Virus record (IMG/VR): IMGVR_UViG_3300047557_003955
Location: 1-33,270 of that record
Strand: one strand, 5' to 3'
Length of the DNA: 33,270 bases
Source: a virus
Made by a program: the position numbers and the translations under genes. This document shows positions 3,335 to 29,397 of this stretch, piece by piece. The notes under the pieces were generated by a model. The model ran no database searches, had not been told where the DNA came from, and saw only the letters and a program-made list of their open reading frames with translations. Position 1 is the first letter of the stretch; every line of letters starts with the position of its first letter.

Positions 3335-3937
3335 TTATATTTCAGTATATTCCTGATTGAGGGCCTCTTCTATGATTCCACATAGCCGTTGATACTCCAC
3401 TTCGGGGGGATCACATTGACCGTCGTTATACGCATAGTCAAGGAGAGCTCCGTTCATGATTCTGGTTAAATAGTGTCCATTTTTATCAACTATGAATTTT
3501 TCAAAGTTTCCAAAAATTGGTGTATTTTCTCCACCTGGGTTTAAAAAGCCATAGAGGGGGTGGGGGTGTTTTTCTTCCTCATCGCAACGAGATTCACGAG
3601 ATACGATCATCTCACTAAATGGGTATGTGACACCCCACTTCTCTTTTGCATAATCTTCTGACTGTTTACCATTAGAGATGCCATCTTCATAGATCCCATA
3701 TGTAACCTTTGGGCCGCAGTAATCATTTGTAGGTACGGCCACAACCTGGAAACCATGGTCTTTATAGGTTTGATAAAGACGCTCAATAATTCCAAACTGG
3801 GGGGCATTACCACAGTCACCAGTGGTGTTAATAAATAAAGTAACCTTGCCTCTGAACTTGCTCAGAAAGTTCTCTTCTCCATCAACACTCCTTAGTGGGA
3901 TGTCGTAGGCAGAAGAATATTTACTCATATTAGTCAT
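3335..3937 (-). CDS. Glutathione peroxidase-like thioredoxin-fold protein
   Basis: 200 residues with the GPx layout. GKVTLFINTTGDCGNAPQ holds the peroxidatic Cys42 (family: GKVLLIVNVASKCG..PQ). ERLYQTYKDHGFQVVAVPTND gives the second strand, HPLYGFL is present, and GNFEKFIVDKNG matches the family WNFTKFLVD.DG. Family members reduce H2O2 or lipid peroxides with glutathione or thioredoxin. Two of the usual catalytic tetrad look replaced: the Gln after P-x-N is Asp/Tyr (PTNDYCG, with an extra Cys74) and the Trp before NF is Gly143. Asn144 and Cys42 remain, so activity may be altered. The start ATG 3937 has a strong site (AGGAGA, six bases away). It lies just downstream of three oxygenases on the same strand; a redox role linked to Fe(II) enzymes is inferred. 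Confidence 0.8.
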   Translation of the reverse strand: MTNMSKYSSAYDIPLRSVDGEENFLSKFRGKVTLFINTTGDCGNAPQFGIIERLYQTYKDHGFQVVAVPTNDYCGPKVTYGIYEDGISNGKQSEDYAKEKWGVTYPFSEMIVSRESRCDEEEKHPHPLYGFLNPGGENTPIFGNFEKFIVDKNGHYLTRIMNGALLDYAYNDGQCDPPEVEYQRLCGIIEEALNQEYTEI

Positions 3938-3976: not shown

Positions 3977-4744
3977 CTAATTTACCTGGCGTTGATATAG
4001 GTTGTATTTGCCAACATCATCCATTAGATGTGGTAGCCACCTATACTGACTCAGATAGTCATCCGTAGCAGGAACTGGAGGCATCCCTTCTGATAGGTAA
4101 CCATGACAGAACCATTGTAGATACGAGATTCTTTCTCCAGACGTAGTCGGGAGAACCTCATGGGCTCCAATAAATGTTGACGGATATAACAATATTGATC
4201 CGGCCGGTGGTTTTACTGAAATCCCCCATGTTCTGAATTCAAGTTCTCCACCCTGATAGTCGTCAGTCCACAGCATTGCAGCCGTAAGGGTATTATGTAG
4301 CGATTTTTGATTAATTGGTGGTTCCCCAATCTCTCCTGGAACAGATACATCAGAATGACAACCTATATTTTGCCCATTTCTATAGGTTGCTATATGACCC
4401 CGAACTCTCCACTTGATTGATTCTGTGGCTACTGGAAATACCCTACAGTACTCAACAACGGCTAAATATAAAGCTTTTTCACAGTCAATAATGAAGTTTC
4501 TTTCACGTTCACCAATCAAATCATGCTGAGGAAGTGTATCTATAAATCTTTCTGGAGCACTATTTACTGATTCGGCATCAAACTCATACCCACCCATATT
4601 AATTAGTCGGCCTTGTTGGTTGATGTATTTGTCTCGCTGTCCAATTGTTCTAAGGGACGAAATATATTGCTTAATAAATTCTTCGTCTATCTCAACAGCA
4701 TTTTCAAATACTGCTATGCCATTTCCAAGATGTCGCATTTTCAT
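3977..4744 (-). CDS. 2-oxoglutarate/Fe(II) oxygenase, prolyl-hydroxylase-like (group A, copy 1)
   Basis: 255 residues with the double-stranded beta-helix motifs of P4H-type dioxygenases: H130-x-D132 (CHSD), distal H195 in IGAHEVLP, and R205 (SGERISY) for the 2OG carboxylate. DDYQGGELEF and SILLYPS are the family's core strands. Such enzymes hydroxylate Pro, Lys, Asn or other residues or metabolites using O2 and 2OG. The N-terminus (HLGNGIAVFENAVEIDEE) is shared with the next two upstream genes, forming one subfamily. I kept ATG 4744; ATG 4738 is also possible. The gap to the upstream gene's stop is five bases. The substrate is unknown; virion proteins are a reasonable inference from the context. 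Confidence 0.9.
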   Translation of the reverse strand: MKMRHLGNGIAVFENAVEIDEEFIKQYISSLRTIGQRDKYINQQGRLINMGGYEFDAESVNSAPERFIDTLPQHDLIGERERNFIIDCEKALYLAVVEYCRVFPVATESIKWRVRGHIATYRNGQNIGCHSDVSVPGEIGEPPINQKSLHNTLTAAMLWTDDYQGGELEFRTWGISVKPPAGSILLYPSTFIGAHEVLPTTSGERISYLQWFCHGYLSEGMPPVPATDDYLSQYRWLPHLMDDVGKYNLYQRQVN

Positions 4745-4749
4745 ATCTT

Positions 4750-5625
4750 TTACAGGGAAAATCCGGGTACGGTGATACTGGTGCCACCCTTACTAAGGAC
4801 GTGATTTTTAAAGTCGTCACGTAGTGATGGCATATAGACATTTGTGGCAAATTGAGCAACATCTGGAGATTTTATTGGATCAACGACATTCTCATTTACA
4901 GCTGAATTTGGAGAACCATGCGAATACCAACCTAGATAGGAATACCTTATCCCATCCTCAACCGGCAGCACTTCATGCGCAGCCATATAATTTGCTGGAA
5001 ACATTAGGATGCTACCACGCTTTGGTACTATGCGGATATCTAAGTAATTAAAATAGTGATGACCGCCTGTAAAATTTGTGCCGTCTAGTTTATCCCCAGA
5101 CTCAACAGAATCGTTGAAATATATTAGGCATGAAACACTGCTTCTAGTTGCAAGCTGATCAGATGGTTCATCTATTCCATAGCAGTAATCAACACTGGTA
5201 TCAGAGTGAACACCTAGATATACGCCTGGTCCATACGAAACTATGTGACCTTTTACTTTCCACCAGATATTCTTAAATGCAATTGGAAACATCTCAAGAT
5301 ATTTAAGTAGATATGTGTCTCTTGATTCTTCTAGGAATCCCAGAAATTTCATTACCTCTGGGTCTTTATCCTGGTGGGCCATTGAGCCTCGCCTTGGCAT
5401 TCTATTGACGTCTTCATAATCAAAGTAATAACCACTTCTATTTAGGTAAGCCTTTTTGCCTGTTTCTGGATTTATTGCAGGTTTGTACATCTGGTCTTGT
5501 TCGCGTGAAACAATTTTTTCTGCAAATTCTGTTGCATATTTTTGTTCAAAAAAAACTGCATCTTCAAAAAGAACAACACCGCCACCAAGGTGTATCCCAT
5601 TGACATTGTTGTTAAGCATAACCAT
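4750..5625 (-). CDS. 2-oxoglutarate/Fe(II) oxygenase, prolyl-hydroxylase-like (group A, copy 2)
   Basis: 291 residues. All key residues are present: H140-x-D142 (GVHSD), distal H217 (AAHEVLP), R227 (GIRYSY). The strands CLIYFND, HHYFNYLDIRIVP and GSILMFPANY are typical of the fold. The N-terminal HLGGGVVLFEDAV block, the KGHIVSYGPGVYLGVHSD block and the length match its two neighbours, so this is a tandem triplication with strong divergence. An insert (VESGDKLDGTNFTGG) lengthens the loop before the second half of the barrel. It overlaps the upstream copy by 14 bases. The first ATG (5625) is used, with ATG 5619 as an alternative. Only a general hydroxylase activity can be assigned. Confidence 0.9.
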   Translation of the reverse strand: MVMLNNNVNGIHLGGGVVLFEDAVFFEQKYATEFAEKIVSREQDQMYKPAINPETGKKAYLNRSGYYFDYEDVNRMPRRGSMAHQDKDPEVMKFLGFLEESRDTYLLKYLEMFPIAFKNIWWKVKGHIVSYGPGVYLGVHSDTSVDYCYGIDEPSDQLATRSSVSCLIYFNDSVESGDKLDGTNFTGGHHYFNYLDIRIVPKRGSILMFPANYMAAHEVLPVEDGIRYSYLGWYSHGSPNSAVNENVVDPIKSPDVAQFATNVYMPSLRDDFKNHVLSKGGTSITVPGFSL

Positions 5626-6469
5626 GATCTTTTTGTCTACCCTCTACTGCCAATAGATGTTCTGGTCGTGTTGTGTCGTCTGGATATTTATTGCGAATAT
5701 ACCTTTCGTAGTCTTCTATTATTGTCTTCATCCAGAACTGTCCGCCAATGGTGGTTGATTTGCGTTCATCTAAGGGGTTAACCCCCCTGGCTATGTCCTC
5801 TGAGCCCTGAGCAAACCACGCTAGATATGAATAGCGTGTCCCTCTTGTAACCTTAAATATTTCGTGAGCACCAAGATAGTTCGCTGGCATCATCAATATG
5901 TCGCCAGTTTTTGGTTTGATATCTATACCGAAGTAGGGTATTTCCATATGGCCACCAGAAAATGAGTAAGGAACATCATCCTCACCGTCATCTATGCAGT
6001 CGTTTAGATATATCAAAGCGCTTAAAACATTACGTGTTGCATGTTCATTTATTGGAATAGCGCCGTATCTATAGTTAACATCATTGTCTGAGTGAAAACC
6101 AAGTGATGCTCCTTTGTCGTATCCAAGAATGTGTCCCTCAGTTCTCCACCATAAAGATTGAAGAATTGCAGGAAAAATTTCTATATATCTAAGCAGGGCT
6201 TGGTATATGGCTTCTTCGCATTCCCTAAAGAAATCAGCATCAAGCCCCATTATGCGTACTGGTGTTTTGTTCATTTTTTCTAATTCATAAATAAATCCAC
6301 CTTGATTAATTGCATGGAGTGGATTTCCCTGCTCGTCATATACGACAGTAAACATTTTGCTACGAGCTTCTTCCTTCATGCGATCAAGCATGGGAATTAT
6401 GGTTTCCTGAGGAACAGAAATAGCATTTCTGAAAATTACTGTTCCCCCGCCAAGGTGATTGGCAATCAT
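5612..6469 (-). CDS. 2-oxoglutarate/Fe(II) oxygenase, prolyl-hydroxylase-like (group A, copy 3)
   Basis: 285 residues. The iron ligands are H126-x-D128 (GFHSD) and H202 (GAHEIF), and R212 (GTRYSY) would bind the cofactor carboxylate. It begins with NHLGGGTVIFRNAI like the other group A copies and has the YLND...SGGHMEIPYFGIDIKPKTGDILMMP core split over two strands. The start ATG 6469 has a GGAGA site four bases upstream and follows a 96-base intergenic stretch, so this gene may head a sub-operon with the two copies downstream. The C-terminus has an extra ~65-residue helical tail (WMKTIIEDYERYIRNKY) lacking in copy 1. Confidence 0.9.
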   Translation of the reverse strand: MIANHLGGGTVIFRNAISVPQETIIPMLDRMKEEARSKMFTVVYDEQGNPLHAINQGGFIYELEKMNKTPVRIMGLDADFFRECEEAIYQALLRYIEIFPAILQSLWWRTEGHILGYDKGASLGFHSDNDVNYRYGAIPINEHATRNVLSALIYLNDCIDDGEDDVPYSFSGGHMEIPYFGIDIKPKTGDILMMPANYLGAHEIFKVTRGTRYSYLAWFAQGSEDIARGVNPLDERKSTTIGGQFWMKTIIEDYERYIRNKYPDDTTRPEHLLAVEGRQKDHGYA

Positions 6470-6565
6470 AAACTCTCCGGTGTTTCCATATTTGGGTATT
6501 TCACTCAGTAAAAACTTACTACGAGAAATGTCGCTAGAGAGATACAGTAAATATTTTCTATAATT
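6470..6565 (-). promoter_or_regulatory. 96-base leader upstream of the group A oxygenase trio
   Basis: A non-coding gap inside the otherwise gapless minus-strand block. Read on the minus strand it is A+T-rich at its 5' end and ends with a clear ribosome binding site (CCGGAGAG) before ATG 6469. A promoter is plausible because of the gap length and the good leader, but I see no convincing -35/-10 pair and no terminator hairpin with a T run. Confidence 0.3.
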
Positions 6566-7300
6566 TTAGTTTTTAGTAAATACTGTTGTTCCGTAGAATG
6601 CAGGGTTATGTGTGGTTGTTGAGCTGGGTTGCGATTTTAGTATTTCATGCATTTCATAAAGAGCATGCGACTCAAAATTTTCTGAGTATATGCGACCATT
6701 ATTGTTCGTAAGCATTATTACCATTGTCCCACCAGGTTGCAGGGCGTCAATTAAGGACTGCAGATATTCAAGGTTGTTTGCCACGTCCCAGCTATAGCTA
6801 AATATGAAATCATAGACTTGTCCCTCTTGGTTTAGGTCACTAATATCCACAACTGAGTATGTGAAGTTATATGCACTATGGACTTCTCTTATGAACTTTT
6901 CATAGAAGAAAAGATTAAGCGTATTAACAAATGTGATATCCGGATTTCTGCCAGTATCTTCTAGATGGGCGAAAATTAAGCCAGCTGATTCAGGGCTTGT
7001 AATTAGCATTTTTTCAGGTTTTATAGCAGAAACCAACATAACTGATGCATGAAGGGCACATTCTTTAGTCAGAATTGTCCAGTCTGGAGTTAGGAATGCT
7101 TGCGTTTCCCATCTCCAGATTTCATCATTACTGCCTATTGCTATAACCCTTTTGTCTGGGTTTGTTGAATTTACAAAATTCATAACATTTTTTGACGCAT
7201 CACAAAAAACGGTATTTAATTCTTCATGGATGGCATCGTCACTGAGTACACCGGTTAGATGTTTAGTAACAAGTGCCTGCTTAATGGTTTGGTTATCCAT
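6566..7300 (-). CDS. SAM-dependent methyltransferase-like protein
   Basis: 244 residues. The second half reads as a class I methyltransferase core: YSVVDIS (acidic residue after strand 2), VYDFIFSYSWD (strand 4), then LQSLIDALQPGGTMVIML (the post-core PGG turn and strand 5). The usual Gly-rich motif I is not obvious; KRVIAIGSNDE or a later strand may take its place, so SAM binding is probable rather than certain. It overlaps the upstream unknown gene by eight bases. It sits among enzymes that modify protein or small molecules, so a role in decorating virion or surface components is possible. An alternative is a Rossmann-fold protein without activity. Confidence 0.6.
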   Translation of the reverse strand: MDNQTIKQALVTKHLTGVLSDDAIHEELNTVFCDASKNVMNFVNSTNPDKRVIAIGSNDEIWRWETQAFLTPDWTILTKECALHASVMLVSAIKPEKMLITSPESAGLIFAHLEDTGRNPDITFVNTLNLFFYEKFIREVHSAYNFTYSVVDISDLNQEGQVYDFIFSYSWDVANNLEYLQSLIDALQPGGTMVIMLTNNNGRIYSENFESHALYEMHEILKSQPSSTTTHNPAFYGTTVFTKN

Positions 7301-7634
7301 TTGCGATGATTGTCCTTACGATATTGCGTTGCCACCATAGCTTTCTCAGTGGTCTTACGATGTGATTGTGCCTATTATTGGTCCAGCTTGACGCAGCAAG
7401 AATATTTTTTTCTGTTGACAATGTACGATAAATACTCTTAGCCTGATTTATAATGTCATCAATTACTAGTTCATCAAAAGATGACCAATCCGTAATACCG
7501 AGTGCGTATAGCAAAAATGCCAGCTCGGACTCAATTGATTCAAGATCATCTTCTGGTGAATAGCCAGAATTTACATCTGCACCGCTGGAGCCATCCCATG
7601 ATGTGGCGGGATTATATTCAACAACTCTCCTCAT
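7293..7634 (-). CDS. Conserved-looking phage protein of unknown function
   Basis: 113 residues, not recognised. It has an acidic N-terminal half (SPEDDLESIESELAFLLYALGI) and a basic, Trp-rich C-terminus (SWTNNRHNHIVRPLRKLWWQRN). ATG 7634 has a GGAGA site nine bases upstream. It overlaps the methyltransferase-like gene by eight bases and follows the next upstream gene after five bases, so it belongs to the same transcript. No membrane segment, signal peptide or catalytic motif is visible. Confidence 0.6.
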   Translation of the reverse strand: MRRVVEYNPATSWDGSSGADVNSGYSPEDDLESIESELAFLLYALGITDWSSFDELVIDDIINQAKSIYRTLSTEKNILAASSWTNNRHNHIVRPLRKLWWQRNIVRTIIANG

Positions 7635-7639
7635 TTGGA

Positions 7640-7882
7640 TTATTCTCCATCTGATTGAGGATTATTGCCCTCTTTAGTGGCAAACTCAGAGTCACCCATT
7701 TGGACAAGACTACATATTGTCGCGAATCCATCTGGGGTTTCATACGACATCTTTGAAGCATTCCAACGAAAGACCTTTTGTTCAGTCTTATCATCCATGT
7801 CATTTTGTGTGTTCCCAGAATTTTTTTCCAGCATTGAATCGCTCGCAGATTTAGCGAAAGGTATTTTGGGATTAATTTTCAT
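7640..7882 (-). CDS. Small hydrophilic protein of unknown function
   Basis: 80 residues, with many charged and polar positions and a Trp (VFRWNASKMSYETPDGFATICSLV). ATG 7882 lies one base after the stop of the upstream gene, typical of this operon. A competing minus-strand frame (7618-7803) is shorter and overlaps the next gene more; I take it as a shadow. No family recognised. Confidence 0.55.
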   Translation of the reverse strand: MKINPKIPFAKSASDSMLEKNSGNTQNDMDDKTEQKVFRWNASKMSYETPDGFATICSLVQMGDSEFATKEGNNPQSDGE

Positions 7883-7883
7883 A

Positions 7884-8108
7884 TTAGGCCAACTTTGAAT
7901 AAGCGCTAATCTGGACTTTTAGGCATTCATGAGAGTGCCATAGTTCACTATTTATCCCGTCATCACTAGGGGTAATTGGATTCTCATATTCTTCCGGCAA
8001 ATCATCTGGATCAATTGACAGCATGAGTGCGAGCGCATATATTGATTGCTCTAGATATGCTTTAGCTTTGTTTTTAGCTTTTAACTTATCTTCTTCTGAA
8101 ATACTCAT
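7884..8108 (-). CDS. Small helical protein, tandem paralogue pair (copy 2)
   Basis: 74 residues, predicted mostly helical. It resembles the upstream gene product: a basic helix, then a hydrophobic helix containing LEQ (YLEQSIYALALMLSIDPDDL here, NLEQHVFSLILEAGFDPDNF there), an acidic linker, and a Ser-His with Leu at the C-terminus (WHSHECLKVQISA against VRSHVLLRAALDS). The shared plan points to an old tandem duplication. It may be a small structural or regulatory subunit; no function can be named. Confidence 0.6.
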   Translation of the reverse strand: MSISEEDKLKAKNKAKAYLEQSIYALALMLSIDPDDLPEEYENPITPSDDGINSELWHSHECLKVQISAYSKLA

Positions 8109-8140
8109 TGCACTGCTTTCTGGATTGATGCCAGCTTATA

Positions 8141-8389
8141 TTAAAAGCGTTCTTCGTACTGGTCCTTTACTGTATTCAGACTATCAAGTGCAGCGCGCAG
8201 TAGGACATGTGAACGGACAAACTCCTGAGATATGTTGTCAAATGTAGGAGAGAATGACTCGCTATCAAAATTATCTGGGTCAAATCCAGCCTCAAGGATA
8301 AGGCTAAATACATGTTGCTCCAAGTTGGCGATACTTCTCTCGTATATGGCCTTCTTTTTTGCCTGTGAAAGATTATTTGAAAATGCCAT
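8141..8389 (-). CDS. Small helical protein, tandem paralogue pair (copy 1)
   Basis: 82 residues. It starts at ATG 8389 with a good site (GAGG, six bases away) after a 105-base gap, so it may head a transcript. The N-terminus is basic (SQAKKKAIYERS), followed by a hydrophobic helix (HVFSLILEAGF), an acidic loop (DPDNFDSESF) and a helix with Ser-His. It aligns by eye with the product of 7884-8108. It is too hydrophilic for a membrane protein. Function unknown. Confidence 0.62.
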   Translation of the reverse strand: MAFSNNLSQAKKKAIYERSIANLEQHVFSLILEAGFDPDNFDSESFSPTFDNISQEFVRSHVLLRAALDSLNTVKDQYEERF

Positions 8390-8494
8390 TATATTTCCTC
8401 GTGTTGACCTGACGCTTGCCTATATTTTACATTACTTTAGTCGCATATATATGTTTATTATTAATTGACAGATAGATAGGTAGCCCTTGTATAC
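8390..8494 (-). promoter_or_regulatory. 105-base intergenic leader with an extended -10-like element
   Basis: This gap separates the DUF6065-like gene from the small paralogue pair. On the minus strand it carries TGTAAAAT (8431 to 8424), an extended -10-like element about 35 bases before ATG 8389, and then a GAGG binding site. Nearly the same octamer precedes two other genes in this window (29367-29374 and 32036-32043). No -35 hexamer and no clear terminator are visible. A short AATTGACAG sequence (8463-8471) also occurs in the other long leader at 24200-24208. Confidence 0.35.
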
Positions 8495-9193
8495 CTATTC
8501 TGGGACGCTGAGCTTAGGCAACCCCATAAAAGTTGGCCCGATTCTGTTGCCATCTGCATCAACTCCAGTCTTTATCCCCTTTGTCCATGTCCACGGATTT
8601 TCTTGATTATTTTGCATTTTTAGTGCATTGTACTTTTTTCGTGCCTCAATGAGTTCTGGGTTGTCGCCCAGGTTAGATACCTCAAATTCAACAGATGGCA
8701 AAACTGAGTCATGAATAAAAGTAAAGAAGCAGTAGGGTGAACCTGCTGGGAAAATTACAGGCTCATTTATCTTGGTAATTTTCCAGTTCATCTGGACCTC
8801 ATCCGGCCACCAAGAACTTGGAATTGAGGCAGCTAGTGGTACTGCTCCGTCTATAAAAAAATTAGGTGATCCAGTAATCCATGTTGAATACCCATCTTCG
8901 GTATTTATTGTCCACCCCATACCGAGGGATATAATTCCAATTATTGAAGGGTATGCCACTGTTCTCCCAGACTGTTTACCTCCGCTAAGAACAACTGGAG
9001 GTGTATTCCCTCCATCCCATTTAACTACTAGTTCTTCCTGAAGAACAAGCTCCCAACCCATGACATTAGCTACTGTCATTGGAAGACACTGATAGGCATG
9101 CTTATTGTAAGTTTCATCCATCCAATCCCTTTTTACTCGAGATTGTCTTATTTCGGGTGCTGATTGATGGTTTTTTGTAAGACTTACTTTCAT
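8495..9193 (-). CDS. DUF6065-like protein
   Basis: 232 residues. The block from RDWMDETYNKHAYQCLPM through NVMGWEL and VVKWDGG, then a long beta-rich region (SLGMGWTINTEDGYSTWITGSPNF; VIFPAGSPYCFFTFIHDS), matches my memory of the DUF6065 family, whose function is unknown but which turns up near oxygenases and peptide-modification genes in bacteria and phages. The C-terminus has a YNALKMQN helix and ends WTKGIKTGVDADGN. ATG 9193 lies two bases after the stop of the upstream oxygenase, with no strong binding site, so coupling is likely. The family name should be checked by profile search. Confidence 0.65.
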   Translation of the reverse strand: MKVSLTKNHQSAPEIRQSRVKRDWMDETYNKHAYQCLPMTVANVMGWELVLQEELVVKWDGGNTPPVVLSGGKQSGRTVAYPSIIGIISLGMGWTINTEDGYSTWITGSPNFFIDGAVPLAASIPSSWWPDEVQMNWKITKINEPVIFPAGSPYCFFTFIHDSVLPSVEFEVSNLGDNPELIEARKKYNALKMQNNQENPWTWTKGIKTGVDADGNRIGPTFMGLPKLSVPE

Positions 9194-9195
9194 TA

Positions 9196-9918
9196 CTAAA
9201 ACTTAAAACGTCCTTGCTCTTGGGAGTACCCAGGTATCCCAGCTCCATATGTTATTGGGGTACCATCAATATTCTCTCCACGACCATGCCTATGTGTTCT
9301 GTCGTTATAGTCAAACATTGTGACAGCTGCGTATTTCGTACCGGAAATAATAGGTTTAGCTGCATGGGCATATATATATGTAGATGGGAATAAAACAATA
9401 TCTCCGTAGGATGGGGTGAATGTCACATTAAGAAACGGAAACCAGAGTTCTCCACCCTTATAGTCGTCATTGAGATACATAACCGATGAAACAGTGCAAT
9501 TGTAGGAAAATCCATGATCGGAATGTACGCCGAAATGTTGCCCTGGCCTATAGCGCACATAGTTTATAGCCTCCATGTAATCCATTCTGATGTTGTATCT
9601 AGACTCATAGTCTTGCAAACATACGGTTAGGCGTTCAACTGTATCGTTATAGATGTTTTTAAGTTCGCAGAATTGGGTGGGTAAATGCGATAGGTGGGTT
9701 TGCCCTATCTTGCAATCAACACAATCCCGATATTCTGGCATCTTCTGCTGATCACCAACTAATGCGTCCATCCACATAAATGGAGCCATCGAGCTATCCC
9801 CAATAGTTTCCTCAAGTCTTTCAGGGATTCTTAGCTCTACAGGGAGTGCATTCCTGTAACACAGAAGACCCATGATTGGATTGCCAATATATTCTGCTGT
9901 AACCATTTTATTTTCCAT
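9196..9918 (-). CDS. 2-oxoglutarate/Fe(II) oxygenase, prolyl-hydroxylase-like (group B, copy 1)
   Basis: 240 residues from ATG 9918. The motifs are H132-x-D134 (GVHSD), SVMYLNDDYKGGELWFP, PSYGDIVLFPS and H185 (YAHAAKP), with K195 (SGTKYA) where most neighbours have Arg; Lys is also the usual cofactor-binding residue in prolyl 4-hydroxylases. A Cys pair (DCVDC) lies in the variable N-terminal half. I prefer 9918 because it begins just after the upstream stop (9920-9922); ATG 9960 would overlap by 41 bases, and ATG 9906 has a GGA site. An enzyme of the hydroxylase class is secure; the substrate is unknown. Confidence 0.88.
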   Translation of the reverse strand: MENKMVTAEYIGNPIMGLLCYRNALPVELRIPERLEETIGDSSMAPFMWMDALVGDQQKMPEYRDCVDCKIGQTHLSHLPTQFCELKNIYNDTVERLTVCLQDYESRYNIRMDYMEAINYVRYRPGQHFGVHSDHGFSYNCTVSSVMYLNDDYKGGELWFPFLNVTFTPSYGDIVLFPSTYIYAHAAKPIISGTKYAAVTMFDYNDRTHRHGRGENIDGTPITYGAGIPGYSQEQGRFKF

Positions 9919-9919
9919 C

Positions 9920-10675
9920 TTAGATGTGCCTACATTTTGATACGGCTCTGATATAGGCATCTGTTGCTTGTTTCATTGCTTCAGCAAACCTATCACTTAA
10001 TATGTATTTTTTCAATAATTCATTTGAAGTTGAGTTACTGCGGCCATCAAGTGAGTGTATTTCTGAATTCACATATAAATCAGAATTGACAGCAGATAAT
10101 AGTTTTTTACAAATTTCTATGTGCGTTAATTTAGAAAATATTTCAAATTGTGCTAGATAGCAGTAATCTTTCAAATCTATACAAAGATTTGTCATTCTTG
10201 TATAGTAATTTATGCATTTATTAATATAAATCTCATCATCTTTGGTATAGAGACTGGACGAGAGTGCCTTTATTATTGGGCTAAATCCACCACCTGGACT
10301 ACTAGTGGACATTGAAATGTATGAACTGATTGCATCTTCTGGTTTTCTTGTAGTAAGAATAATGCAATCAACATTATTAACTGCATTCTCTATAATTTTT
10401 TGACTATGGCTAAGTCTGCTGGGAATAGCTAATTGTGGTATTCCAGATAGGGCATGGAAACGAAGAAACCTATTGCCCTGCCTGGGAAAGCCATCAATCA
10501 TGATGCGCTTAGCACCTACCTCCCTGTATTGACTATCGGTTTCTGGACCAACAGTCCAGTCAGCTTCTTCCCATCTAGATATCTCTATATTAAAAAACCA
10601 ATTTCCACTATCTGGTGGCAGTGTTCTAACGCTATTTTTGTGTTTACCAGAATGGTTTTTCTGTTTCATTGACAT
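9920..10675 (-). CDS. Sulfotransferase-like P-loop protein
   Basis: 251 residues. MIDGFPRQGNRFLRFHAL resembles the 5'-phosphosulfate loop of sulfotransferases (family: PRSGT.WL), and CIILTTRKPEDAISSYIS resembles the 3'-phosphate motif with its Arg and Ser. Members transfer sulfate from PAPS to sugars, lipids or tyrosine. A regular Leu/Ile helix-rich C-terminus follows. I start at ATG 10675 (or 10669) because the longer frame begins with TTG at 10708; either way the gene overlaps the upstream oxygenase by 26-32 bases. Its place between oxygenases suggests action on the same target, but this is inferred. It could also be a kinase-like P-loop protein. Confidence 0.6.
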   Translation of the reverse strand: MSMKQKNHSGKHKNSVRTLPPDSGNWFFNIEISRWEEADWTVGPETDSQYREVGAKRIMIDGFPRQGNRFLRFHALSGIPQLAIPSRLSHSQKIIENAVNNVDCIILTTRKPEDAISSYISMSTSSPGGGFSPIIKALSSSLYTKDDEIYINKCINYYTRMTNLCIDLKDYCYLAQFEIFSKLTHIEICKKLLSAVNSDLYVNSEIHSLDGRSNSTSNELLKKYILSDRFAEAMKQATDAYIRAVSKCRHI

Positions 10676-11399
10676 CTTCGCGTTTTTTATTTGGAAATCT
10701 TTGTCCAAATATTGTCATTGTTTGTGGAATATTTGACCTGGAAAATATTCGCTGATTTTCCATTGAATCTTCTGCGCTGTAGTCAATAAAATTTAATGGT
10801 GTTTCGTCAAGAACAAATGTGCGCCATAAATACTGGAGTTTCGGTGTTGTAAAAAATGTCATCATTGCATACCGATATCCGCTAATTATCTCTCTTACTC
10901 CGTGTATATAGAAATGCGTACCTGGGAAAAAAATTAGCTCTCCTGGTTCTGGCTTTATTTCAAGATCATGGTCTGGGAAATATATTTCCCCGCCGACATA
11001 GTCGTCATTCAGGTATGTCAAGGCCGCATATTCTATAAATATAGAAGAAAAATTATTTATATTTGAAATATCCCAAGTATCATAATTCCATTTAAATTGT
11101 GCCTCGCAGTCAGAATGCGGAGCCTGAAATTCGCCCTTAAACCACTTACGAACTGTGGTGCCGGACATGTCCGTTACATCAATACCATATGTCCTTGAAA
11201 TTATTTTTTCTACATTGAGTTGGTAGCTTTGAACCAACGAAGTTATTTCCGTATCTGGCCTGAACTGTAGAATTGCCCTTGAACTAATCGTTTTGCCACC
11301 TATTTCTGGTTGAGCATTGGCAAATTCTACGATTTTAGCAATTTCTTTGTGGTTTAGGAAGTTTTTAATGCGATGTATATTCTGTGAAAGTGCCTTCAT
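10644..11399 (-). CDS. 2-oxoglutarate/Fe(II) oxygenase, prolyl-hydroxylase-like (group B, copy 2)
   Basis: 251 residues. H95-x-D97 (APHSD), YLNDDYVGGEIYFPDHDLEI, PGELIFFPG, H166 (IHGVREI) and R176 (SGYRYA) make a complete active site. The start ATG 11399 overlaps the upstream stop as ATGA; a longer frame from 11444 would add 15 residues inside the upstream gene and is rejected. The N-terminal half (RIKNFLNHKEIAKIVEFA) is the usual cap helix of this family. The C-terminus extends about 55 residues beyond the barrel and overlaps the sulfotransferase-like gene. Confidence 0.9.
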   Translation of the reverse strand: MKALSQNIHRIKNFLNHKEIAKIVEFANAQPEIGGKTISSRAILQFRPDTEITSLVQSYQLNVEKIISRTYGIDVTDMSGTTVRKWFKGEFQAPHSDCEAQFKWNYDTWDISNINNFSSIFIEYAALTYLNDDYVGGEIYFPDHDLEIKPEPGELIFFPGTHFYIHGVREIISGYRYAMMTFFTTPKLQYLWRTFVLDETPLNFIDYSAEDSMENQRIFSRSNIPQTMTIFGQRFPNKKREDVNETEKPFW

Positions 11400-12199
11400 G
11401 GATTTTCGCCAGTGCTTCCACGATGAGCATACCCATCGTTCCACTCTAAAGGAAAAGATGCTCGTTGTTCATCGGACAGTTTTGAATACATATTATGTAT
11501 TGCGCTGTGCATTGTGATCAATTTTGGTCTAGCAAAGTGTGTTATTAAATTCCACCTTGTTCCATTAGAAATCTTGCGAACTCCATGATTATATTCAACG
11601 CTCCCTGGAAAGAAAACAAGTTGACCCGGGGTATGCGTAATCTCTATGTCATATGCTTCAAAATAGAGTTGACCGCCATCATAGTCGTTATTGATATATA
11701 TGTTTGCTGATATGTCAATTAGACTCGGTTCATATATATGCATTGGTGAGTAATCAACAAGATAAGAGATGCCATTAGGGCCTATTCCTTCTGAGTCAGT
11801 GTGGCCGGGACAAAAACCACCAGATAATGTTTGGTGTCTGTTGAAATTAAATATTGGTACTACCTGATGACCTACTTCATAAGAAATTACTTTCTTAGCC
11901 TTATCCATGTATTTGTCTAGCAGTTGATGACCTCTATTTCTCTGAAAATCAACTGCGTATTTCATGCATAATTCTCTGTACTCACCAGAAGTATGCTCAA
12001 TAAAATCCATGCATGGAATTTTTTCATACCACCATGAATCTTTGTTATAGCGACACAGCTCATCAAGTATCTGAAGATCATCTTTTTCTATGAAGTTATC
12101 TATTATTGTGATATATCGTGGATGTGCAGACTTTAGATCTTGTTTATTTGTCAAAATGATTGATTCAACATCATATTTTGAGTAGTGAGTTGGGCGCAT
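11396..12199 (-). CDS. 2-oxoglutarate/Fe(II) oxygenase, prolyl-hydroxylase-like (group B, copy 3)
   Basis: 267 residues. The iron site is H133-x-D135 (PGHTD, with Thr in place of the usual Ser) and H205 (YNHGVRKI); R215 (NGTRWN) would bind 2OG. The core strands are ANIYINNDYDGGQLYFEAYDIEI and PGQLVFFPG. The N-terminal YITIIDNFIEKDDLQIL is the same cap element as FLNHKEI in the downstream copy. It starts seven bases after the stop of the upstream oxygenase and overlaps the downstream one as ATGA. The loop between H-x-D and the next strand is long (GIGPNGISYLVDY...), perhaps a substrate loop. Confidence 0.9.
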   Translation of the reverse strand: MRPTHYSKYDVESIILTNKQDLKSAHPRYITIIDNFIEKDDLQILDELCRYNKDSWWYEKIPCMDFIEHTSGEYRELCMKYAVDFQRNRGHQLLDKYMDKAKKVISYEVGHQVVPIFNFNRHQTLSGGFCPGHTDSEGIGPNGISYLVDYSPMHIYEPSLIDISANIYINNDYDGGQLYFEAYDIEITHTPGQLVFFPGSVEYNHGVRKISNGTRWNLITHFARPKLITMHSAIHNMYSKLSDEQRASFPLEWNDGYAHRGSTGENP

Positions 12200-12206
12200 T
12201 GATAAC

Positions 12207-12845
12207 CTACTTAAATTCTTTAACTGTATAAAATGATGGCGTCGTATATCTCTCTCCAGATGTAATCATGCTCACACCATGAAGATAATTGACATCTCCT
12301 GGATGGATTACTGCCAATCCAGGTTTTGGCTTTATACATATATCGTGCTGTGGATAGTAGAGCTCTCCGCCCCCAAAATCATCGTTATAGTAGAACAGGG
12401 AATTAATGTCATAGTCAACAAAGGCATTTGGATTTCCGTCATTTAGTTGCTTATCCGCATGGGGCCGCTGTTCAATTCCTGGTCTCCATTTCATTATCAC
12501 TGGAGGCCTTCTGCTTACCGTGCATTTAAAACGTGTTTCAATTTCTATCTGCATTTTGTCTATGTATTTATCAATAATTAACCAAATATCCGTATTTAAC
12601 CTTTTAAGGATTTCACTACTGCATTGCCTGTCATTCCAGTAGTCAGCGTTATATAGGCATGTTCCGTCTTCTGCAAAAACACTTTCTTTTTCATTATTCC
12701 ACTCGTCTATTGTCGGGCAGAACTTTTGAATCGCAATCAAATCTTCTGTGTCAATAAAATTCTCAATGACGATTATGTTGTCTGGGGAGTCACCAAAATG
12801 ACCGGGCTCCACAAACCATGGTGACTTTTCATCTAAATGGTTCAT
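12207..12845 (-). CDS. 2-oxoglutarate/Fe(II) oxygenase, prolyl-hydroxylase-like (group B, copy 4)
   Basis: 212 residues, the shortest of the seven. H129-x-D131 (RPHAD, with Ala instead of Ser), LFYYNDDFGGGELYYPQHDI, PGLAVIHPG, H189 (YLHGVSMI) and R199 (SGERYT) are intact, so it should be active. VIENFIDTEDLIAI is the cap element. It is the first oxygenase downstream of the PPYF-repeat FN3 gene, 36 bases after that gene's stop, with no obvious ribosome binding site; read-through from the fibre genes is likely. Confidence 0.9.
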   Translation of the reverse strand: MNHLDEKSPWFVEPGHFGDSPDNIIVIENFIDTEDLIAIQKFCPTIDEWNNEKESVFAEDGTCLYNADYWNDRQCSSEILKRLNTDIWLIIDKYIDKMQIEIETRFKCTVSRRPPVIMKWRPGIEQRPHADKQLNDGNPNAFVDYDINSLFYYNDDFGGGELYYPQHDICIKPKPGLAVIHPGDVNYLHGVSMITSGERYTTPSFYTVKEFK

Positions 12846-12881: not shown

Positions 12882-13631
12882 CTACTTGAATTCTGGTGGG
12901 AAAAATGGTGGGAACCACGGTGGAAACCACGGTGGGAAATATGGCGGGAAGTACGGCGGAAAATACGGTGGGAAATACGGTGGAAAATAAGGCGGGAAGT
13001 ACGGAGGAAAATAAGGCGGGAAGTACGGAGGAGCAACAGGTGTTATTGCTCCAGTCTGCGAAGCATTACTTTCTCCGTAGCTGTTGTATGCGGTTACGGT
13101 AAAAAAATAAGCAGTTCCGTTTGTTAGTCCGGTCTTTGTAAAGCTTGTCCCCGTGATTCCTTCGTCAGTCGCCACAAGTGAGCTATTGCTATTTAGATAT
13201 GTTCTAACTCTGTAGTTAGTGGTTCCTGTCCCAGCAGCCGCAGCAGTCCAAGTTATTGTTGACTCAGCATTTCCACCATTGGTTGCAGATGCATTACTTG
13301 GAGCCCCAGGCTCGTTTCCAGCAGTAACGGAGTTTGATGCGCCTGACGAATCAGACTCAACCCCCGTACTTGAAACGGCTTTGACGGTAAAAGTATATGC
13401 AGTACCAGCTGTTAGACCAGTGACAATAATCGGGGAAGATGAGCCAGTTGCAGTTACGCCACCCGGAGAGGATGTGACTGTATACGAAACGGTCCCCTTA
13501 CCCCCATATGTTGATCCCGTGAATGCAACAGATATAGCCCTATCAGTATTGAACTGAATAGATGCAGTTCCAATAGTGGGCGTAGTCGGCTTTTTGCCAC
13601 CGCTCTCGTCATCGCCAGAAAAGAAGGTCAT
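12882..13631 (-). CDS. FN3 protein with C-terminal PPxF tetrapeptide repeats
   Basis: 249 residues from ATG 13631, which overlaps the stop of the long fibre as ATGA; a longer frame from 13697 lies inside that gene and is rejected. After a short acidic N-terminus (DDESGGKK) come two FN3 domains (residues ~15-100 and ~108-198), each with VTGLTAGTAYTFTVKA- or LTNGTAYFFTVTA-type strands. The last ~50 residues are twelve tandem tetrapeptides: eight PPYF, two PPWF, one PPFF and one PPEF, then a final Lys. The PPxF tail is likely an extended polyproline-type rod or adhesive end. It sits directly between the fibres and seven prolyl-hydroxylase-like genes, which makes its Pro residues candidate substrates (inference). 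Confidence 0.85.
   Translation of the reverse strand: MTFFSGDDESGGKKPTTPTIGTASIQFNTDRAISVAFTGSTYGGKGTVSYTVTSSPGGVTATGSSSPIIVTGLTAGTAYTFTVKAVSSTGVESDSSGASNSVTAGNEPGAPSNASATNGGNAESTITWTAAAAGTGTTNYRVRTYLNSNSSLVATDEGITGTSFTKTGLTNGTAYFFTVTAYNSYGESNASQTGAITPVAPPYFPPYFPPYFPPYFPPYFPPYFPPYFPPYFPPWFPPWFPPFFPPEFK
12888..13031 (-). repeat. Twelve 12-base tandem repeats coding PPxF
   Basis: 144 bases made of twelve 12-base units at the 3' end of the FN3 gene. The units differ mostly at synonymous or single positions (CCN-CCN-TAY/TGG-TTY), giving PPYF eight times at the upstream end and PPWF, PPFF and PPEF at the stop-proximal end. The near-identical units suggest recent slippage or unequal exchange and so a length that can vary between isolates. 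Confidence 0.92.
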
Positions 13632-24218: not shown

Positions 24219-25367
24219 ATGAGGAAAAAACAAAGTCCATCAAGACTTGACACATCTGGCCGAAGGATTGATGTGAGAAATAGCGGACAAAATACAATTG
24301 CATTCCTGACAAGCGACTGGGCATGGGGAACTGAACCTCTCCAGCCAAATGGTTGTGCTTGGTATAGGTGTGTTCTGCCTGGAGTTCAGTTAGAAAAGCT
24401 CGGCTGGACTGTCGGAGTTGGAATGCCGTGCTTCAATGAAAGAGATGGCTTTGGTCTTGTTTCCTCTGAGAATAAAGGGATACACGGCTGGGATCTCATA
24501 GTTTTTAAGCTCCTAATGCATAAAGACATACTTGAGTGCATGAAAAAAGCCCTAGACATGGGGCAAAAAATTATTGTTGATGTTGACGATTTTTTTGATG
24601 GGCTTCATGAGGAGAACAGGGCTTTTGAGGCAACTGATCCAGATAAAAATCCAGACAACAATAGAAAAATACTCCACGAAATTATTTTGCGTTCAACGGC
24701 AGTAATAACCTCAACGCCATTTCTACGCGACTACTACTCGCAGTTTCATAAGAATGTTTTTATGGTTCGTAATGGCATAGATTCGGAAAGATTTCTGCAT
24801 ATACCAAAACCCAGGCGCCAGCATCATAGAACAAGAATTGGATGGGTTGGGGCCACACCGTGGAGATCCAGAGATCTTGATGAAGTAAGTCCTTTTATGA
24901 ACAGCTTTATGGCGCTAAATAATGTGAGATTCCACCATTCTGGCGACACTGCTGGTGCAAAGAAAGTTACAGATGAACTTAAAATTGAATCTAAGTGGTG
25001 CTCAACTCTGCCACTAGTTCCAATATCTGAATACCCTAAATTATTTAGCCCGATAGATATTGGGATAGTGCCACTAAGGGATGTTCCATTTAATCATGCA
25101 AAATCCTTTATAAAGGGTCTTGAATACGCTGCTGCTGGAATTCCCTTTGTTGCCTCTTATTCTCCTGAATATGAATTTCTTGCCAATGATGGAATAGGAA
25201 GAATTGCCAGAAATACCAAAGAATGGGAATATCACTTAAAAGAATTGCTTGACCCAGCAATGAGACGTGATGAAGCAGCCATAAATAGAGAAAAACTTCG
25301 CAATTACACCATTCAAGCTAGGGCGAATGATTGGGATGAAGTTTATAGAAAGATACTAAATGGGTAG
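24219..25367 (+). CDS. Glycosyltransferase, GT-B (GT4-like)
   Basis: 382 residues. The N-terminal half has NTIAFLTSDWAWGTEPL.PNGCAWYRC and KIIVDVDDFFDGLHEE. The C-terminal half has VFMVRNGIDSERF, RTRIGWVGATPW, HHSGDTA and LFSPIDIGIVPL, then KSFIKGLEYAAAGIPFVAS, the E-x7 motif that holds the donor nucleotide in GT4 enzymes. It would transfer a sugar from a nucleotide donor; the acceptor is unknown. It starts at ATG 24219 without a strong binding site. It is the first gene of an operon with two more glycosyltransferases and a nucleotidyltransferase, which fits building a surface or virion glycan. Confidence 0.87.
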   Translation: MRKKQSPSRLDTSGRRIDVRNSGQNTIAFLTSDWAWGTEPLQPNGCAWYRCVLPGVQLEKLGWTVGVGMPCFNERDGFGLVSSENKGIHGWDLIVFKLLMHKDILECMKKALDMGQKIIVDVDDFFDGLHEENRAFEATDPDKNPDNNRKILHEIILRSTAVITSTPFLRDYYSQFHKNVFMVRNGIDSERFLHIPKPRRQHHRTRIGWVGATPWRSRDLDEVSPFMNSFMALNNVRFHHSGDTAGAKKVTDELKIESKWCSTLPLVPISEYPKLFSPIDIGIVPLRDVPFNHAKSFIKGLEYAAAGIPFVASYSPEYEFLANDGIGRIARNTKEWEYHLKELLDPAMRRDEAAINREKLRNYTIQARANDWDEVYRKILNG

Positions 25368-25370
25368 TTT

Positions 25371-26024
25371 ATGGATGATATTCAATGGTCATTTGGAATA
25401 GTAACTGGTTATGAAGATCATAACAGACTGAACGAAATTATTTCAAGTATAGAAAAACTTAAAATACCAGAATACGAAGTACTTTTTATAGGTGGTAATC
25501 GTGGTGACTACTCCTCTGAAAACACCAATGTTGTTTTTCTAGACTTTGATGAGTCAATAAAGCCAATATGGATTACTAGAAAAAAGAATATTCTTGCCCA
25601 AAGCTGTAGGTACGAAAACCTTGTACTAATGCATGATTACCATGTATTTGATACATCTTGGTATTCAGAGTTTAAAAGATTTGGAACAGATTGGGATATA
25701 TGTTCGTGCCCTCAATATCTAATAAACGGCGCTAGAAATCCAATGGATTGGTCATTATGGGATAAGCCAGGACATGGAAGAGCATGGTCGCTTGATTATA
25801 ACGACTGGTCACAAACTCAATATATGTATATATCTGGTGGATTTTTCATCGTAAAGAAGCATGTGATGCTGGAAGAACCTCTTGATGAGTCTCGTGGGTG
25901 GAACGAAGAAGAAGATGTTGAATGGTCCCTACGGGTAAGGGATAAGTACGTAATGAAGTGCAATGGTAGAAGCATTGTTAGACATAACAAGTGGCATAGA
26001 CATGCAGGGCCCAAGCCGTCATGA
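25371..26024 (+). CDS. Glycosyltransferase, GT-A (GT2-like)
   Basis: 217 residues. WSFGIVTGYEDHNRLNEIISSIE, YEVLFIGGN and ITRKKNILAQSCRYENLVLMHDYHVF form the GT2 nucleotide-binding core, with HDY in the DxD position. YISGGFFIVKKHVML and SRGWNEEEDVEWSLRVR provide the acceptor loop and the catalytic acidic residues. At 217 residues it is about a minimal catalytic domain. It begins three bases after the previous stop and overlaps the next gene as ATGA, so the three are coupled. The sugar and acceptor cannot be read from the sequence. Confidence 0.85.
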   Translation: MDDIQWSFGIVTGYEDHNRLNEIISSIEKLKIPEYEVLFIGGNRGDYSSENTNVVFLDFDESIKPIWITRKKNILAQSCRYENLVLMHDYHVFDTSWYSEFKRFGTDWDICSCPQYLINGARNPMDWSLWDKPGHGRAWSLDYNDWSQTQYMYISGGFFIVKKHVMLEEPLDESRGWNEEEDVEWSLRVRDKYVMKCNGRSIVRHNKWHRHAGPKPS

Positions 26025-27391
26025 ACAATAGACTTGTCATATTTGATCTTGATGGAGTACTCATTGAGTCAAGAGACCTTCATTATCATGCACTAAATAA
26101 AGCTCTTGAAAATATTGACAATAAGTATGTCATAACGAGAGAAGAGCATCTATCAACATACGACGGACTAGGTACAACCAAGAAGCTAGAGATGCTTTCG
26201 CAGTCAAAGGGTCTGCCGAGCGATTGTCACCAAAAAGTCTGGGAAGATAAGCAATCTCAAACCATTGAGTTAATTCGTAAGTTTCCAAAGAACTACGAAG
26301 CAATACAAATAGCTGAAGAACTCAGAAATCGTGGCTGGAAAATGGCAGTCGCTAGCAATGCAATTCGGGAAACAGTGATTGCTGCTCTAGATGCTATTGG
26401 AATGCTTCCTTATATCAGTTACATAATGAGCAATGAAGATGTAAAACATCATAAGCCATACCCGGAGATGTATTGGCGTTGCATGATTGCCCTTAGCTGT
26501 CATCCATCTCAGACCGTAATAGTTGAGGACTCTCACATAGGTAGACAGGGGGCAATAAGTTCTGGTGCCCACCTTTATCCAATCAAAGATTCTTATGACC
26601 TAAACAAAGAAAGATTCATGGCAATGATTAACGATTTTGAAAATACAAACACATCAGCAGTTGCGTGGAGGAATGAAAAAATGAATGTTCTAATACCTAT
26701 GGCTGGTGCTGGGTCAAGATTTGCTCAAGCTGGATATACATTTCCAAAGCCACTTATTGAGGTAAATGGAAAACCAATGATTCAGGCTGTTGTAGAGAAC
26801 CTAAATATTGATGCTCACTACATTTTCATAGTTCAAAAAGAACACTATGAAAAATATAATTTAAGGCAGGTTTTAAGTCTAATAAAGCCTGGTTGCGACA
26901 TAGTACTTGTTGACGGACTCACAGAGGGTGCTGCCTGCACCACATTGCTCGCTAAGGAGCTTATTAATAACGAAAATCCACTATTGATGGCAAATTCTGA
27001 CCAGATAGTTGAATGGAACAGCAATGAATGCCTATATGCGTTTGATGCAGATGAAATAGATGGTGGAATCTTGACATTTAAAGCAACCCACCCAAAATGG
27101 TCGTATGCGAAAATTGGAGAAAATGGGTTTGTGACAGAGGTTGCAGAAAAGAATCCTATATCAGATAACGCAACAGTTGGAATTTATTACTGGAAACACG
27201 GCTCCGACTATGTCAAGTATGCGGAACAAATGATCTCAAAAAACATACGTACAAACAATGAGTTCTATGTCTGTCCAGTATTCAATGAAGCAATTGAGGA
27301 TTGCAAAAAAATAAGAGTTAAAGAGGTTTCTCGCATGTGGGGAATTGGGACACCAGAGGACCTAAATACATATTTGGAGAACAACAAATGA
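26021..27391 (+). CDS. HAD phosphatase - nucleotidyltransferase fusion
   Basis: 456 residues. Residues 1-~205 are a HAD hydrolase with all four motifs: FDLDGVLIES (D9, D11), VASNA, HHKPYPEMY (Lys) and VEDSHIGRQGA (Asp). Residues 221-456 are a nucleotidyltransferase: MNVLIPMAGAGSRF, FPKPLIEVNGKPMIQ, LLMANSDQIVEW (metal Asp) and RMWGIGTPEDLNTYL. The first could be a sugar-phosphate phosphatase or mutase, the second a sugar-1-phosphate nucleotidyltransferase making NDP-sugars for the operon's glycosyltransferases. The start ATG 26021 overlaps the upstream stop as ATGA. The junction keeps a strong internal ribosome binding site before codon 221, so the second domain may also be made alone. Confidence 0.88.
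   Translation: MNNRLVIFDLDGVLIESRDLHYHALNKALENIDNKYVITREEHLSTYDGLGTTKKLEMLSQSKGLPSDCHQKVWEDKQSQTIELIRKFPKNYEAIQIAEELRNRGWKMAVASNAIRETVIAALDAIGMLPYISYIMSNEDVKHHKPYPEMYWRCMIALSCHPSQTVIVEDSHIGRQGAISSGAHLYPIKDSYDLNKERFMAMINDFENTNTSAVAWRNEKMNVLIPMAGAGSRFAQAGYTFPKPLIEVNGKPMIQAVVENLNIDAHYIFIVQKEHYEKYNLRQVLSLIKPGCDIVLVDGLTEGAACTTLLAKELINNENPLLMANSDQIVEWNSNECLYAFDADEIDGGILTFKATHPKWSYAKIGENGFVTEVAEKNPISDNATVGIYYWKHGSDYVKYAEQMISKNIRTNNEFYVCPVFNEAIEDCKKIRVKEVSRMWGIGTPEDLNTYLENNK
26667..26683 (+). promoter_or_regulatory. Internal ribosome binding site before the nucleotidyltransferase domain
   Basis: GGAGG (26667-26671) lies nine bases before an in-frame ATG at 26681, exactly at the start of the nucleotidyltransferase domain (MNVLIPMAGAGSRF). 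It looks like the relic, or the working start, of a once separate gene. Confidence 0.65.
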
Positions 27392-28095
27392 GCAAAGATA
27401 AAGTTGACTATCTTGCAATGCAGAATAGTTACTACGATGAATACGCAAGTAAATGGACTCTTGAATTTAGGGATCCAGTTGTCGGGTCTTACGATGCCCA
27501 TAATAACTGGGAAGATTATGATAAATATCTGTTTAAGGGTATAAGTACTGATAAAAAGATTGCCCTTGAATATGGCTGTGGTCCTGGTCGTAATTTAGTT
27601 AAGTTTTCTGACAGGTTTGAACGTATTGACGGCATTGACATTTCAAGTATAAATATTGAAAAAGCAAAGCTTAATCTCTCACATAACGGAATAATAAATT
27701 CACGCTTGTTTGTAACAACAGGAGATAATCTTTCTGAAATAGGTGACTCTTCGTATGATGTTGTATTTTCGGTAATATGCCTCCAGCATATTTGTTCATA
27801 CGACATTAGATTTAGTATTTTTAAAGATATTTACAGAGTACTTAAACCAGGTGGAAAACTATGTTTTCAAATGGGTTTTGGCGGAAAAGGTGAAATACCG
27901 ACAGCAAATTATTACGACAATGTTTTTGATGCTGTAAGCACAAATGGACATGCCGATGTAAGCATCACTGATGAAGAAAACCTCAAAGATGACTTACTTA
28001 ATAAAATTGGCTACCAGGTTTACAAATCGCACATAAGACCAACAGGGCCCGGTGATAACCATGCAAACTGGATTTGGGTTCAGGTATCAAAATGA
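27388..28095 (+). CDS. Class I SAM-dependent methyltransferase
   Basis: 235 residues from ATG 27388, which overlaps the previous stop as ATGA; a longer frame from 27337 is inside the upstream gene. Motif I is LEYGCGPGRNL (residues 60-70), followed by RIDGIDISS (Asp84 on strand 2), YDVVFSVICLQHI (motif for strand 4) and VLKPGGKLCFQMGF. This is the Methyltransf_11/25 plan, acting on small molecules, sugars or lipids. In this operon, O-methylation of a glycan is the natural guess. The C-terminal part (YQVYKSHIRPTGPGDNHANWIWVQ) may bind the acceptor. Confidence 0.86.
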   Translation: MSKDKVDYLAMQNSYYDEYASKWTLEFRDPVVGSYDAHNNWEDYDKYLFKGISTDKKIALEYGCGPGRNLVKFSDRFERIDGIDISSINIEKAKLNLSHNGIINSRLFVTTGDNLSEIGDSSYDVVFSVICLQHICSYDIRFSIFKDIYRVLKPGGKLCFQMGFGGKGEIPTANYYDNVFDAVSTNGHADVSITDEENLKDDLLNKIGYQVYKSHIRPTGPGDNHANWIWVQVSK

Positions 28096-29366: not shown

Positions 29367-29396
29367 TGTAAAATTGGTTGGTCGGAGGGCCAACCA
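29367..29396 (+). promoter_or_regulatory. Leader with -10-like element and hairpin displaying the ribosome binding site
   Basis: TGTAAAAT at 29367-29374 is an extended -10-like element. It is followed by a perfect seven-base-pair hairpin: TGGTTGG (29375-29381) pairs with CCAACCA (29390-29396), and the eight-base loop TCGGAGGG holds the GGAGG site. Transcripts reading through from the glycosyl operon would contain the whole hairpin; those started at the -10-like element would lack most of its 5' arm. Confidence 0.55.
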
Positions 29397-29397
29397 G

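Follow-up and report, generated by a model that had tools for sequence, protein, structure and literature searches.

Clusters of 2OG-Fe(II) oxygenases accompany proline-aromatic tail arrays in phages: a candidate cassette for tail hydroxylation

Why would a phage keep seven 2-oxoglutarate (2OG)-Fe(II) oxygenases side by side, and on what would they act? The question is raised by the IMG/VR virus record IMGVR_UViG_3300047557_003955, analysed as one stretch of 33,270 bases (the window, to which all coordinates refer), in which seven such genes, named here by their first coordinate, lie close together (Table 1). A likely shared substrate candidate, missed by the first-pass annotation of this DNA, is encoded directly upstream of oxygenase 12207: a tail-type protein that ends in a (PPxF)12 array. 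Since prolines in series next to prolyl-hydroxylase-like enzymes make an obvious candidate for the substrate, the pairing was tested across viral records. We put at roughly 0.65 the probability that the island belongs to a cassette type, widespread among phages, whose enzymes hydroxylate prolines in the phage's own tail array.

Table 1. Features of the oxygenase island and its surroundings (residues numbered from ATG 9918 for 9196 and from ATG 11399 for 10644)
Feature	Coordinates	Strand	Remarks
Glutathione-peroxidase-like protein	3335..3937	-	End of the oxygenase run; recurs in about 20 other array loci
2OG-Fe(II) oxygenase	3977..4744	-	H130/D132/H195/R205; second subgroup
2OG-Fe(II) oxygenase	4750..5625	-	H140/D142/H217/R227; second subgroup
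2OG-Fe(II) oxygenase	5612..6469	-	H126/D128/H202/R212; second subgroup, PKHD-like
DUF6065 protein (PF19541)	8495..9193	-	Regular third partner of array and oxygenases
2OG-Fe(II) oxygenase	9196..9918	-	H132/D134/H185/K195; predicted fold nearest prolyl 4-hydroxylases
2OG-Fe(II) oxygenase	10644..11399	-	H95/D97/H166/R176
2OG-Fe(II) oxygenase	11396..12199	-	H133/D135/H205/R215
2OG-Fe(II) oxygenase	12207..12845	-	H129/D131/H189/R199; predicted fold nearest prolyl 3-hydroxylase 1 and prolyl 4-hydroxylase
Tail-type protein, 249 amino acids	12882..13631	-	Proposed substrate; two Fn3 domains, C-terminal array
(PPxF)12 array	12887..13030	-	DNA units vary synonymously
Repeat fibre, 1987 amino acids	13628..19591	-	Mtd_N domain; immediately precedes the array gene

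Seven oxygenases and the array gene beside them

All seven oxygenase frames are open, and every iron and 2OG ligand that the first-pass annotation had listed was found at its position. The HxD...H triad and the distal Arg or Lys, present in all seven, are conserved across relatives. A profile search of the whole record with PF13640 (2OG-FeII_Oxy_3, curated cut-off 27 bits) matched exactly the seven oxygenase places and, together with the retained ligands, supports the proposed membership of the 2OG-Fe(II) superfamily. When whole proteins were scanned, five were clearly over the cut-off (30-45 bits), 11396 was at it (26.6 bits, 28.1 in the record search) and 12207 was under it (22.8 and 24.6 bits, respectively). 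Oxygenase 12207 still reads clearly as 2OG-like, because it matches phrog_61 (E=5e-18) and its AlphaFold2 (AF2) model matches prolyl hydroxylases. The seven also show weak NCBIfam similarity to PKHD-type hydroxylases, with 12-36 bits against cut-offs of 143-399 for the PKHD-type hydroxylase/YbiX equivalog (PRK05467), which were not reached.

That these are distinct, non-identical enzymes is borne out by their mutual local identity of about 24-37%. Since this identity is low while a different record, L028, contains a separate, closer relative for each of the seven (48-78% identity), their sequences identify them as old paralogues kept together; recent duplication or an assembly artefact was ruled out, as each paralogue has its own relatives elsewhere. 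In the tree, 3977, 4750 and 5612 form one clade (100/100), and no single clade is demonstrated for 9196, 10644, 11396 and 12207. The ratio of non-synonymous to synonymous polymorphism (pN/pS) against the nearest relatives, 0.21-0.47, only suggests purifying selection, synonymous sites being saturated for the corresponding substitution ratio (dN/dS).

The array gene and 12207 share a strand and are 36 bp apart, the array gene coming first, within a tightly packed series of genes; at its other end, the start codon of the array gene (ATG 13631) and the stop of the preceding fibre gene overlap in ATGA. The placement of the island in a phage tail module is likewise supported. Among the twelve PPxF units, PPYF occurs eight times, PPWF twice, and PPFF and PPEF once each; the Gly-X-Y repeats of a collagen-type substrate were not found in this array. 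At the DNA level ten of the 12 units are distinct, with 76% matches at period 12. As these units differ at synonymous positions, the repeat is kept at the protein level, and recent DNA slippage is ruled out by the same variation. The x of PPxF is F in 1561 units, Y in 453, H in 114, W in 12 and another residue in 7; the motif varies between phages, with proline and aromatics retained. Several array proteins from other loci (L215:8643-9971, L121:6071-7390 and L423:5000-6340) have an intein/Hint-like C-terminal region beyond the array, with weak, below-cut-off Intein_splicing and Hint_2 matches, that might cleave or attach the array.

Association of arrays, oxygenases and DUF6065 across records

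Fifty IMG/VR records were chosen solely because their DNA matched a (PP[FY]F)3P pattern. PF13640 was present in 45 of them (median 6, maximum 11), and 35 had four or more oxygenases. A control set of fifty records picked by a random 15-mer gave PF13640 in 4/50 and PPxF in 0/50. A tight oxygenase cluster was found in one random record only, G187 (five genes in 5.3 kb), and an array just upstream had been predicted before the record was fetched. An Fn3 protein with (FFSPPG)n was indeed encoded upstream on the same strand, and two DUF6065-type genes lay between the oxygenases. In two random records with scattered or single oxygenases (G150 and G158), no array was seen in the 17-18 kb read, PPxF being absent from the whole record and other array types being sought just within the part that was read.

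A further fifty records were chosen by an Fn3 pattern, and array patterns were sought anywhere in the record. Oxygenases were present in 17/18 records with PPxF or FFxPPx vs 8/32 without (Fisher p=3e-6), and four or more copies in 14/18 vs 3/32 (p=2e-6), both p-values being optimistic because the records share ancestry. With PPxF as the sole pattern, oxygenases were present in 9/10 vs 16/40. Where PPxF was absent and the record had four oxygenases or more, (FF[AS]PPG)n or PFFP-type arrays were present in 9/9 cluster-bearing loci, and no Pro-aromatic array was found in the 24 oxygenase-free loci of this set that were read. The 79 loci of relatives of 12207 test the array side only, having been picked by oxygenase: 64 had an array gene, many of the others were short contigs, and all 41 whole records that were searched had oxygenases, up to 12.

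Gene order was examined in loci that had been retrieved by criteria other than oxygenase homology, and these contained 119 array genes. For 114 of them the closest oxygenase was downstream, and for 102 it was on the same strand, with a median gap of 138 bp. Clusters of 4-12 oxygenases are normal in array-bearing phages, and seven copies are not exceptional. In bacterial and archaeal genomes (257 Gb), six stretches matched the array pattern: three were real arrays, on phage-like contigs binned in metagenome-assembled genomes, and the rest were incidental runs. Two of the three real arrays had oxygenases downstream within the stretch.

DUF6065 accompanies nearly every oxygenase cluster. The protein in the window scored 146.5 bits against PF19541 (cut-off 26.6, E=1e-42), and the family had 103 members over 102 array loci. 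In the Fn3-scan loci, DUF6065 or its sister cluster was found in 36/40 with array and oxygenase vs 5/40 with neither; of 17 records with four or more oxygenases, 16 were over the PF19541 cut-off and the last, G127, had a weak match. Bacterial DUF6065 loci (Sinorhizobium, Niveispirillum) had no oxygenase nearby. DUF6065 as a divergent 2OG enzyme was considered and rejected, no profile link to the oxygenases and no solved relative being found. A second recurring family, represented by L222:2820-3599 (65 members in 56 loci, no Pfam match), often adjoins DUF6065 in array loci.

The terminases of two array phages are unrelated, one being near those of psiM2 and Gordonia phages and the other near that of Moorella phage MTATph1; the cassette is therefore not the mark of one phage lineage. 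Grouped by leader sequence, the array proteins form 18 clusters, and in nine of these at least one locus has an oxygenase. No array was found near the oxygenase loci of cyanophages and marine single cells. Among isolate phages, the search for the array protein gave one weak Fn3 match, in a Micrococcus phage; it was made with BLAST, which masks the array and may have missed isolates that carry one. A search for T4-like gp23 (PF07068) gave no match and none in the controls either, hence it is uninformative.

Such an association might be one of location only, if array and oxygenases were parts of an exchanged tail module and the enzymes acted on glycans, on molecules of the host surface or on virion parts other than the array. 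Tail genes do surround the cassette, other parts of the window encode glycosyltransferase-like proteins, and arrays without oxygenases occur. We nevertheless find this explanation improbable, since oxygenases are so much rarer in the array-free Fn3 records than in those with an array, and the link holds over unrelated terminases and different array motifs.

Predicted folds and the proposed hydroxylation of the array

AF2 models were made for two of the seven enzymes, 9196 (predicted local distance difference test score, pLDDT, 86.7; 57 sequences) and 12207 (pLDDT 89.5), and the double-stranded beta-helix fold is present in both. The top Foldseek match of the 9196 model was the viral collagen prolyl hydroxylase of PBCV-1, vCPH (5c5t, E=1e-10), followed by the Chlamydomonas prolyl 4-hydroxylase (P4H). 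In VIA-align, the same model aligned with Trichoplax PHD, Pseudomonas P4H and the Chlamydomonas P4H with a (Ser-Pro)5 peptide at a Z of about 20 and a root-mean-square deviation (rmsd) of 2.4-2.9 over 175-196 residues. The 12207 model was nearest to human prolyl 3-hydroxylase 1 (P3H1; Z 17.1, rmsd 2.8 over 176), with PHD2 tied within about 1 Z, and by Foldseek its nearest match was a Bacillus P4H. Profile searches of PDB sequences agree with this kinship. Predicted fold and profile both place 9196 and 12207 nearer to prolyl hydroxylases than to the remaining 2OG enzymes.

The Bacillus and Pseudomonas P4Hs among these matches were crystallised with EF-Tu or shown to modify it, and one could imagine that the phage enzymes act on host proteins (EF-Tu, ribosomal proteins) as bacterial prolyl hydroxylases do, seizing translation or oxygen sensing. 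We consider this very unlikely, as it leaves unexplained both the several co-occurring paralogues and their tight linkage to a proline-array tail gene. Oxidation of DNA bases in the manner of TET/JBP, of the kind that occurs in hypermodified phage genomes, seems to us more far-fetched still: 11396 has a weak Tet_JBP match (E=0.009, below cut-off) and some PHROG names mention DNA enzymes, whereas the structural matches of both models are protein hydroxylases and the oxygenase genes are located in the tail module.

A third alternative keeps the array or neighbouring tail proteins as the target and moves the modification from proline to a different residue (Tyr, Phe, His or Asn/Asp). The x of PPxF is almost always aromatic, 4-12 enzymes are many for proline alone, and an Asp/Asn beta-hydroxylase is present in some array loci as well (PF05118, at L055:6905-7681). 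The best structural matches of both models are nonetheless prolyl hydroxylases, and proline is common to all the array motif types, which makes this alternative doubtful.

The reading that we favour, hydroxylation of the array prolines, would work as follows. The cassette would have three parts: a tail protein (Fn3-type here) with a Pro-aromatic array, (PPxF)n in the window and (FFxPPG)n or PFFP-type elsewhere; prolyl-hydroxylase-like 2OG-Fe(II) oxygenases, usually 4-12, directly downstream of the array gene; and a DUF6065 protein. Array protein and hydroxylases would be made from the same tightly packed gene run, and the enzymes would hydroxylate the array prolines using O2, 2-oxoglutarate and Fe(II), perhaps at C4 by some and at C3 by others, with the paralogues dividing the sites between them. 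The prolines would be decorated before or during tail assembly, and hydroxyproline would stiffen a polyproline-type rod or supply OH groups for contacts or sugars, so that the modified array might serve as a stiffer, sticky or sugar-accepting fibre tip. As to the broader claim that in many phages the three-part cassette yields a tail fibre resembling collagen or extensin and hydroxylated at multiple positions, we lean towards it, though not strongly.

Several points weigh against proline hydroxylation of the array. Five of the 50 PPxF-picked records have no oxygenase, and no oxygenase was found in the fetched stretch of L093-type (5 loci) and L107-type (3 loci) arrays, which sit inside longer proteins. 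The FFxPPx pattern was added after the same 50 Fn3-picked records had been read, a post-hoc choice from which the random record with an (FFSPPG)n array stands apart, and the shared ancestry of the records affects the p-values as said above. The 3977/4750/5612 subgroup has PKHD-type hydroxylases as its nearest relatives, with P4H next. A predicted fold is a sign of kinship and no proof of the substrate or of proline as the modified residue, and hydroxylation of the array is itself chemistry that we infer, not an observed reaction.

Neighbouring genes, significance and known systems

A role in dealing with peroxide or redox state is conceivable for the glutathione-peroxidase-like protein, whose gene closes the oxygenase run. 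A methyltransferase-like protein (6566-7300, weak Pfam match) has relatives in about 31 other array loci. The reading frame between oxygenases 9196 and 10644 (9920-10708) has a P-loop-like start (GFPRQGNRFLR); its assignment as a sulfotransferase, a motif impression by eye, found no database support and was dropped. The protein at L055:6905-7681 matches aspartyl/asparaginyl beta-hydroxylase at 4e-25, and its presence in an array locus indicates that the set of some phages includes further types of hydroxylase. Elsewhere in the window, an oppositely oriented block (24219-29334) encodes a glycosyltransferase-like protein and a HAD-nucleotidyltransferase fusion, along with further genes that may concern sugars or the surface. 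Two adjacent small paralogues (1532-1986) have the common motif CxxC...CxxCGCFMxxKVxLxxAxCPxGKW, and an 820-amino-acid protein (29374-31836) contains a long stretch of Thr and, after it, an acidic region rich in Glu and Ser.

Phage 2OG oxygenases are already known and common (PMC12774648). In aquatic surveys, few auxiliary metabolic genes are as common as viral prolyl-4-hydroxylase genes, given for 62% of Baltic Sea water samples in one table, and their use by viruses 'remains cryptic' (PMC9301287). No published account of the array-oxygenase pairing or of DUF6065, and no paper with the array strings or with a proline-rich tail plus 2OG-Fe, was found in the open-access literature, most subscription journals lying outside the search. 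The pairing of array, oxygenases and DUF6065 makes the cryptic role testable, with a named substrate and named enzymes. The recurrence of the pairing in many different phages suggests that these phages chemically modify their own tail proteins, much as animals do collagen. If this is true, some phage tails would bear hydroxyproline fibres built by a dedicated enzyme set, tail maturation would depend on oxygen, iron and 2-oxoglutarate, and phages would possess a dedicated system of several enzymes for hydroxylating a virion protein. DUF6065 would thereby acquire a function, as would a large class of viral P4H genes, and small prolyl hydroxylases of new sequence specificity could be drawn from the cassettes.

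Among known systems, the PKHD-type hydroxylases (PiuC, Sbal_3634) are the nearest solved relatives of the 3977/4750/5612 subgroup; their genes, however, are cellular, associated with iron uptake and not part of tail modules, and the window proteins fall far under the NCBIfam cut-offs. The PHROG 61 oxygenases of cyanophages and Melnitz phages belong to the same superfamily, enzymes of the window match phrog_61, and the Phold authors noted that such phage proteins resemble the prolyl hydroxylase EGLN3 (PMC12774648). Those examined differ in occurring as single or few copies, and in P-SSM4 and S-PRM1 they lie beside DNA-replication genes with no Pro-aromatic array nearby. The collagen P4H/P3H and plant or algal extensin-type P4H systems likewise pair a repetitive, proline-rich structural protein with dedicated prolyl hydroxylases, and P4H-like and P3H-like predicted folds are both found in the window. 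Unlike those systems, the window has no Gly-X-Y or SPPPP repeats and no secretory pathway, and hydroxylation is something we infer here. PBCV-1 vCPH offers a virus-encoded prolyl hydroxylase that is also the top Foldseek match of the 9196 model. The substrates of the PBCV-1 enzyme are reportedly proline-rich repeats that occur in the virus's own proteins, and to our knowledge PBCV-1 has one such enzyme only. The work of Eriksson et al. (1999), as it is cited in PMC9301287, concerns this viral P4H and its peptide substrates. PBCV-1 is an algal virus, whereas the systems described here are found in phages and join up to 12 enzymes to a tail protein, Pro-aromatic arrays and DUF6065.

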